Source of the DNA: Elusimicrobiota bacterium
Lineage (GTDB): Bacteria > Elusimicrobiota > Elusimicrobia > Elusimicrobiales > UBA9959
NCBI GenBank assembly: GCA_012517235.1
Contig: JAAYVI010000054.1
Coordinates: 1 to 44,714 of the forward strand
DNA: 44,714 bases
Direction: 5' to 3'
In this document: piece by piece, positions 14,072 through 14,511 of the stretch
How positions within the stretch are numbered: position 1 is the stretch's first letter
How the letters are laid out: every line of letters starts with the position of its first letter
Made by a program: the position numbers and the translations under genes
The notes under the pieces: model-generated
What the model saw: the letters and a program-made list of their open reading frames with translations, nothing else
What the model was told of the DNA's origin: nothing
Database searches by the model: none

Positions 14072-14130
14072 GGATTCCCCGAACGTCGAAACAATATCTA
14101 TTTGTAACAAATAAAAAAATGGACGTGAGG
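14072..14130. repeat. 59-bp direct repeat, copy 1
   Basis: Starts GGATTCCCCGAACGTCGAAA and ends with TGGACGTGAGG, which are the last bases of tRNA-Ala read on this strand. It is identical to 14252-14310, offset by exactly 180 bp. It contains the palindrome TATTTGT-A-ACAAATA (14099-14113). This copy ends after 11 bases of tRNA sequence. Confidence 0.9.
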
Positions 14131-14251
14131 AGCGTAAAAAGGAAACCATGTTATGGTTTCCGCGCTCCGCAAGGCCGGAGGCATTTTCTTAAGAGTTGAA
14201 AATGCCGAGGCGGGGTCGCGCAAGACCGCTATGCGGGCTATGCGTGACAGG
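14131..14251. other. Hairpin-rich spacer between the 59-bp repeats
   Basis: No ORF. It contains a perfect stem GGAAACCAT-GTT-ATGGTTTCC (14151-14171) flanked by AGCG and CGCT, a CTCCG/CGGAG stem, and GCATTTTC/GAAAATGC around TTAAGAGTT. It is more G+C-rich than its flanks. It could be a structured RNA or the body of a small mobile cassette; I do not recognise it. Confidence 0.5.
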
Positions 14252-14310
14252 GGATTCCCCGAACGTCGAAACAATATCTATTTGTAACAAATAAAAAAAT
14301 GGACGTGAGG
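14252..14310. repeat. 59-bp direct repeat, copy 2
   Basis: Identical to 14072-14130. Here the shared TGGACGTGAGG continues into a 43-nt copy of the tRNA-Ala 3' half. Confidence 0.9.
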
Positions 14311-14342
14311 GGGATCGAACCCCTGACCTCCTCGCTGCCAGC
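14300..14342 (-). pseudogene. Truncated tRNA-Ala copy (3' half)
   Basis: 43 nt identical to 14438-14480, that is the intact tRNA-Ala from the discriminator base back through the T arm, variable loop and the anticodon. After 14342 the sequence departs completely from a tRNA. It cannot fold as a full tRNA. It has the form of a displaced attB half left by site-specific integration at the tRNA 3' end. The 95 bp between the two copies (14343-14437) hold no gene. Confidence 0.85.
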
Positions 14343-14437
14343 TTCGGACTCGGTGGCTCAGTAAAAGCAAGGAAGACCGATTGCCGCCACAGCGCCTCGC
14401 TTTTTTGTTGTTTTTTGTTTTTAGTGAGATAATTGAA

Positions 14438-14511
14438 TGGACGTGAGGGGGATCGAACCCCTGACCTCCTCGCTGCCAGCGAGGCGCTCTCCCAAGCTGA
14501 GCTACACGCCC
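14438..14511 (-). tRNA. tRNA-Ala (anticodon GGC)
   Basis: Read on the minus strand: acceptor GGGCGTG pairs with CACGTCC (one G-U), discriminator A. The D arm is GCTCAGCTTGGGAGAGC. The anticodon stem CCTCG/CGAGG encloses CTGGCAG, giving GGC. GGGGTTCGATCCCC forms the T arm. CCA is not encoded. Total length is 74 nt. Confidence 0.96.

Follow-up and report, generated by a model that had tools for sequence, protein, structure and literature searches.

An alanine tRNA gene of an Elusimicrobiota bacterium is followed by two stacked non-coding repeat units, each of which closes with a duplicate of that tRNA's tail. We regard it as an even call that two non-coding tRNA-tail units form a short array here, for which a hairpin element would have entered a tRNA arm and, in doing so, duplicated the 3′ part of the tRNA. 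A displaced tRNA 3′ half is ordinarily taken for the footprint of an integrase; here such halves mark small structured units for which no dedicated integrase was found, and such units recur behind several tRNA genes and link to the RtT repeats of Escherichia coli. The window, by which we mean the whole 44,714-nucleotide stretch analyzed (contig JAAYVI010000054.1 of assembly GCA_012517235.1), is one contig of a 1.94-Mb metagenome-assembled genome (MAG), referred to below as the own genome or G000.

Read along the minus strand, the order is tRNA, 95-nt linker, 43-nt tRNA half, 48-nt flank, 121 nt, CCTCACGTCCA, a second 48-nt flank, and chromosome (Table 1). ARAGORN, Rfam, and an exact repeat comparison confirmed the intact tRNA-Ala and the 43-nt exact copy of its 3′ half described in a first-pass annotation of this DNA, and the 59-bp direct repeats that it had reported, with the second copy 180 bp to the left, are exact in the sequence (14072-14130 = 14252-14310). 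The 56 repeated 25-mers counted on the plus strand of the window are exactly the yield of the two direct repeats, which excludes chance. The 59-bp repeats are separated by 121 bp, most of which belongs to E2, a structured element that is found elsewhere too. Where the annotation had seen the last 11 tRNA bases retained, GTCCA surely derives from the tRNA, but CCTCAC doubles as the general end of E2, so that only GTCCA is certainly tRNA. A tmRNA came into consideration because the 48-bp flank contains GTTTCGAC and 14265-14328 scored weakly as a permuted tmRNA; it was rejected at 17.4 bits against a gathering threshold of 47, and also because a tagged tmRNA lies at G000:C1:8157-8511.

Table 1. 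Features of the window at the tRNA-Ala locus, with one transposase gene elsewhere in the window
Feature	Position	Strand	Basis
Intact tRNA-Ala(GGC)	14437-14512 / 14438-14511	-	ARAGORN and Rfam
Tail unit 1, 138 bp: E1-bearing linker and displaced 43-nt tRNA half	14300-14437	-	Alignment with G002, which lacks the unit
Linker, 95 bp	14343-14437	-	Aligns with DNA by tRNA-Ala genes or halves in G001, G002, G006, and G008
E1, with inverted anticodon-arm copy (GCGAGGCGCT) and covarying hairpin	14330-14399	-	Covariance model R2, E 6.2e-8; this sequence belonged to the R2 training set, and R2 extends into the tRNA half by its first 9-12 nt
Displaced tRNA-Ala 3′ half, 5′ edge of anticodon loop to 3′ end	14300-14342	-	43/43 identical to 14438-14480
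Tail unit 2, 180 bp: flank copy, E2, and short tRNA 3′ end	14120-14299	-	Repeat comparison, E2 match, alignment with G002
Native downstream flank, copy 1, 48 bp, T-run at start	14252-14299	-	Alignment: similar flank directly after the tRNA in G002
E2, structured element of a dispersed family	14123-14248	-	Covariance model R1, E 2.4e-24 (window copy in training set)
CCTCACGTCCA, E2 end fused to tRNA 3′ end	14120-14130	-	Sequence comparison
Native downstream flank, copy 2, 48 bp, adjoining chromosomal sequence	14072-14119	-	Repeat comparison and alignment
Y1/REP-associated tyrosine transposase (RAYT) gene	4289-5017	+	PF01797; best NCBIfam model REP_Tyr_transpos, 72.7 bits (cut-off 80)

A site without the first unit was found in the sister genome G002, where the same tRNA adjoins the same DUF3417/phosphorylase gene (protein 92% identical). 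There, tRNA-Ala(GGC) is followed directly by the T-rich flank, an E2 piece, and GTCCA. When the two loci are aligned, the 138 bp of linker plus displaced half stand out as a clean insertion in the window, and G002 likewise lacks the second copy of the flank. With the 138-bp segment absent there, the arrangement is not conserved in all relatives. The contig of a same-genus relative, G001, begins 76 bases before the DUF3417/phosphorylase gene, and the site lies beyond it.

The first-pass annotation had interpreted this pattern as the scar of a site-specific integration, an interpretation that is partly supported. Like a tRNA-targeted integrative element, the locus combines an intact tRNA, novel DNA between the tRNA and an identical displaced 3′ half, native flank adjoining that half, and an empty site in a relative; the insertion is clean, yet no island remnant is to be seen, since 95 bp and a tRNA half leave no room for cargo. 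The 59-bp repeats that were counted as part of the scar are not att repeats; they duplicate the native downstream flank on either side of a second unit of another kind. Units of this kind, at about 135 to 180 bp and with no cargo and no integrase found, differ from the known integrative elements.

That an island once used the tRNA 3′ half as attB and was then deleted internally, leaving its ends, is in our estimate improbable. The displaced half against native flank and the empty site in G002 would agree with such an island, as would the fact that the copied pieces begin at the anticodon loop or T-loop, both of which are known as places of integrase sites. An island flanked by a 44-bp tRNA repeat has been described, in a study in which the tRNA fragments examined were ascribed to genetic-element integration and CRISPR-Cas activity (PMC9897764). 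The enzyme complement argues the other way. Our searches covered three classes (tyrosine recombinases, serine recombinases, and Y1 transposases) and found two tyrosine recombinases in each of G000, G001, and G002 and no serine recombinase (PF00239) match in any of the three; the best models for the two in G000 were XerD, whose cut-off was exceeded, and XerC, which at 332.9 bits fell just short of its cut-off of 335.15. In place of a tyrosine integrase with its att site at the tRNA half, the own genome thus yielded only XerD/XerC-type enzymes, although at 91-97% completeness of the MAGs an integrase gene may have been missed. No island was seen in short stretches retrieved around such loci, and tandem arrays of units of about 135 to 178 bp, described below, are likewise at odds with an internally deleted one. 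A 365-base query against the own genome revealed no second copy of the 59-bp unit; apart from itself, it matched parts of tRNA-Ala and some short sequences at low score. A phage search gave short matches, those listed lying mostly over the tRNA part.

The linker, described in the annotation as 95 bp of unrelated sequence, turned out to resemble DNA beside the tRNA-Ala of other genomes. It aligns with 85 nt downstream of tRNA-Ala(CGC) in G001, with the downstream region of tRNA-Ala(CGC) in G008, with a unit of the tandem array in G002, and with a G006 unit carrying GGC-type halves; in these four of five comparisons, none of 500 shuffles scored as high. The fifth alignment, with the tRNA-Ala(CGC) locus of the own genome, was not significant (20 of 500 shuffles). 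These results bear on another possible origin, in which no mobile element takes part and stable tRNA hairpins passively give rise to tandem duplication or template switching. Such a process might explain why tandem units include the tRNA end together with its flank or terminator and why presence is scattered, and an inverted arm beside a direct arm would fit fold-back copying. We nevertheless think it an unlikely origin: the linker in the window is no copy of its own flank and resembles flanks at other tRNA-Ala loci, and a single E2 family occurs both behind different tRNAs and away from tRNAs.

Within the linker, E1 is built of an inverted anticodon-arm copy and a hairpin, after which the tRNA half resumes from the anticodon loop. 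In alignment A2, comprising 15 of 22 distinct sequences after near-duplicates and two 32-nt short forms were dropped, 3 of 5 pairs changed on both sides, with a covariation score of 0.30 versus 0.10 in shuffled alignments; this count and those for E2 and E4 below ignore relatedness. At an E value of ≤1e-3, E1 was detected in 18 of 340 Elusimicrobiota genomes (the own genome included), at 27 places at tRNA-Ala halves, its spread covering four genera of one family and 14 of 32 genomes in the largest genus. All but one of the 27 continue into CGAGGAGGTC of the tRNA-Ala half, 22 of them on through the T-arm, and the 27th keeps just GCAACGAGGAG; an intact tRNA-Ala was present within the fetched stretch at 21. 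The idea that E1 is a generally mobile hairpin was dropped, as all 27 places abut tRNA-Ala sequence, an association that is partly circular because the R2 model ends with 9-12 nt of tRNA. The own genome has one E1 match and one E2 match.

Small units of this kind also form tandem arrays in several relatives. The array of G002 has a period of 135, with a third unit lengthened by an insert, and stands at the start of a contig that appears to continue another contig, which ends just after tRNA-Ala(CGC). In G006, E1 occurs on two contigs in near-identical form (one difference by eye), followed once by a CGC-type half behind tRNA-Ala(CGC) and once by GGC-type halves with no intact tRNA in reach. 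Some relatives have whole tRNA copies upstream in which the anticodon loop is replaced by the E1 hairpin. An assembly artefact has been kept in mind, given that the window comes from a MAG, that some relatives' contigs end inside or beside arrays, and that one relative's contig carries apparent Illumina adapter sequence (the start of L177 on the minus strand, a contig end resembling Illumina/Nextera adapter that we take to be an assembly contaminant in that MAG). The same architecture recurs in MAGs of different records and in the complete E. coli K-12 record, and we give an artefact almost no credence.

A small third palindrome (CCGCCACTAC..GGCGG) is inserted in displaced tRNA-Ala halves, at the T-loop, and in one case forms a tandem run (L038 [G002:C110], at about 280-380, and L177 [G006:C242]). 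We also noted that tRNA-Ala(CGC) keeps its neighbors, a short conserved protein and a gene judged by eye to be mltG-like, and that the direction in which it points with respect to these, likewise judged by eye, is reversed from one genus to another (L040, L041, and L085 versus L072-L079).

Presence of E1 was scored on a tree of one protein, whose gene adjoins tRNA-Ala(CGC) in relatives, for 26 of 29 loci, three having been dropped with no tRNA in reach. The loci scored as positive include L103 and L112, where ARAGORN did not recover an intact tRNA (Ns, contig end), and L092, whose contig stops within E1. Twelve of the 26 loci were without E1 and 3 had part of it only. On this poorly resolved tree, presence is scattered (7 changes versus a shuffled mean of 8.7), a distribution that fits repeated loss as well as gain.

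E2, the element of the second unit, is about 130 nt long, is made up of hairpin domains, and mostly starts with G[T/C]CACG and ends with CCTCA(C), as judged by eye. Its alignment, A3 (6 of 6 sequences), showed 15 of 44 pairs changed on both sides (score, 0.30 versus 0.12 shuffled). The family is dispersed: matches at E ≤ 0.01 occurred in 44 of 59 family genomes, with up to 29 in one genome, and at E ≤ 1e-6 in 40 of the 340 phylum genomes, three of these outside the family. We examined 110 E2 places, namely, the best place in each of 30 genomes, a set that may be biased because R1 was trained on copies from tRNA-Ala loci, and 80 further high-ranking places among the matches listed (a few skipped), which are less affected. 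A same-strand tRNA lay within 371 nt upstream at 27 of the 110 (12/30 and 15/80), compared with a rough expectation, from tRNA density, of about 0.5%. At 3 further places of the 30 and 2 further of the 80 a tRNA faced the other side, and 78 of the 110 had no tRNA in the stretch.

At 19 of the 27 places with a same-strand tRNA (8/12 and 11/15), the right end of E2 passes into at least 8 nt of the local tRNA's own 3′ end, counts in which the tRNA end may overlap E2's own end (CCTCAC, often CCTCACCT) by about 5-6 nt at Ala and 2-3 nt elsewhere. The tRNAs concerned are Arg at 11 places (TCT, CCG, and GCG), Ala at 4, Leu at 2, and Ser at 2, and the local 3′ ends outside Ala measure 9-16 nt. At the Met loci L129, L141, and L235, 6 nt of the tRNA 3′ end follows E2, possibly by chance alone. 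The rule that E2 always enters palindrome loops, for which 58 of the 80 places were used (weaker and contig-end ones left out; 56 usable, 47 distinct flanks), was not supported: palindromic flanks of at least 5 nt occurred at 11 of 47 versus 14.2% when swapped, and those of at least 6 nt at 2 of 47 versus 4.0%. Five copies with no tRNA in the stretch (L252, L224, L248, L257, and L258) do sit inside another palindrome, ..CA-E2-CCGTG.., a subset that is suggestive but not significant as a general rule for E2.

Another element, E4, was found behind tRNA-Gly(GCC) of the own genome, where a tandem array holds two E4 units at 176-bp spacing, and behind Arg, Ser, and Met genes of relatives. It folds into a junction that encloses inner hairpins and whose outer stem is made by the inverted and the direct T-arm. 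Alignment A4 consists of six units chosen by eye, with a longer third unit from G020 and the E. coli RtT left out; 21 of 36 pairs changed on both sides, four of them in the outer stem, where tRNAs themselves differ (score, 0.51 versus 0.21 shuffled). The derived model, R3, was run against a 1.13-Mb sample comprising about 0.73 Mb of the own genome (window included) and 0.40 Mb of another genome, G048. It gave six matches at E < 0.01, two of them training sequences. A tRNA stands upstream of five of the six, and three prove to be E2 copies in reverse, including that of the window; R1 for its part finds an E4 copy in reverse. Because each model finds the other element in reverse, E2 and E4 look related and oppositely oriented.

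The same sample contained 28 tRNAs (22 in the own genome and 6 in G048) with at least 150 nt downstream, which were not picked for their tails, though several own-genome contigs were already known from tRNA-like matches. Direct copies of the tRNA 3′ part of at least 11 nt were present within 400 nt of 4 of the 28 (3 of 27 without the window's tRNA) versus 5 of 718 swapped tails; those outside the window belong to Gly(GCC) (18 nt), Gly(TCC) (11 nt), and Asn of G048 (11 nt, short of the 3′ end). Inverted copies of at least 10 nt accompanied 5 of 28 tRNAs versus 17 of 718 in the swapped control, one of the five (Thr) being 351 nt away and maybe due to chance. The wider comparison favors small structured units, each of which would arrive behind a tRNA gene along with a duplicate of that tRNA's end.

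By analogy, the Elusimicrobiota units are built like RtT, with no sequence similarity detected. RtT repeats are known as a curiosity of the tyrT region. At tyrV of E. coli K-12 there are three repeat copies at 178-bp spacing, and Rfam names three RtT (RF00391). When an RtT unit is marked against the tRNA, a T-arm piece in inverted orientation precedes a direct T-arm 5′ piece, after which come an insert and then the tRNA itself, T-loop to CCA; E2 units at Arg(CCG) loci follow this order. Both kinds of unit stand in tandem behind a tRNA, each with its 3′ end, and they are similar in length or spacing (178 bp for RtT, 180 bp for window unit 2, and 176 bp for the Gly units). A structured insert by an inverted tRNA arm is shared with RtT by E1 of the window, with its anticodon-arm piece, and by the Gly E4 of the own genome; no inverted arm was marked in the window's E2 unit. 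Rfam gave no RtT (RF00391) match in the window or at six related loci, and R3 did not find RtT in E. coli at E ≤ 0.1. RtT lies behind tRNA-Tyr, whereas the Elusimicrobiota units lie behind several tRNA types; E1, unlike RtT, uses the anticodon loop, and E2 also sits away from tRNAs. A literature search found no paper on such tRNA-tail arrays, but as its coverage included few subscription journals, this is weak evidence of novelty.

The resemblance to RtT raises the question of whether the units are candidate functional RNAs, released from the tRNA transcript and kept by selection on structure. Covariation in E1, E2, and E4 would be expected of such RNAs, E. coli rttR, with the same build, is an annotated 171-nt RNA, and the E1 core is alike (by eye) among genomes in which the flank between tRNA and E1 varies. 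We find this possible but rather doubtful, as E1 is patchy both across genomes and among the tree loci, E2 also occurs away from tRNAs, and the displaced half in G008 has decayed.

Of the enzyme classes searched, Y1 (REP-type) transposases are present alongside XerC/D. Nine of 10 genomes searched have them, with four in G000 and none in G001, and nothing links them to E1, E2, or E4. The sole E2 match of G000 is about 9 kb from the RAYT gene of the window. E2 resembles REP/REPIN sequences in being a short, structured, dispersed repeat in a window that encodes a Y1/REP-type transposase; it differs in its length of about 130 bp and in having neither of the tags, GTAG or CGTC, that REPs carry (PMC3733652). 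About 25 bases upstream of the listed start of the transposase we noticed a palindrome, TACCGCGACA..TGTCGCGGTA, which is possibly the transposase's own REP.

We read the units as RtT-like ones that may spread and turn over, through an enzyme if any is involved. Each consists of a piece of the tRNA's downstream flank, a structured element within a copied tRNA arm, and the local tRNA 3′ end, with the element placed in the anticodon loop for E1 and in the T-loop or at the T-stem/acceptor edge for E2 and E4. A hairpin-forming element would enter the arm in the same event that duplicates the 3′ part of the tRNA, so that the gene would remain intact while the duplicate shifts outward; recombination between direct repeats would then expand arrays or remove them cleanly. 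Directly supported are the architecture, its recurrence at several tRNA types, one pair of empty and filled sites, covariation, and scattered presence. From these we infer that the elements move, although they were not observed in an excised form. Because local 3′ ends of 9-16 nt outside Ala seem hard to explain by ordinary homologous exchange, a single event may both insert the element and duplicate the end of the tRNA. More tentatively, and with somewhat more doubt than confidence, we speculate that there is a class of tiny non-coding mobile elements of about 130-180 bp that home to tRNA arm loops, acquire the 3′ end of the tRNA they enter, never break the gene, stack in tandem, and occur across this Elusimicrobiota family, with RtT as a member. 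If the units move, they would represent an element that targets tRNA genes yet leaves them whole; should they be RNAs, a tRNA-linked RNA family would exist outside the enterobacteria. The covariance models make both the mobile-DNA and the RNA readings testable.

Elsewhere in the window, a cobalamin riboswitch match was recorded at 42035-42098 on the plus strand (32.1 bits, gathering threshold 31.5), and the row of genes just downstream of it looks, by eye, like a B12 ABC transporter.
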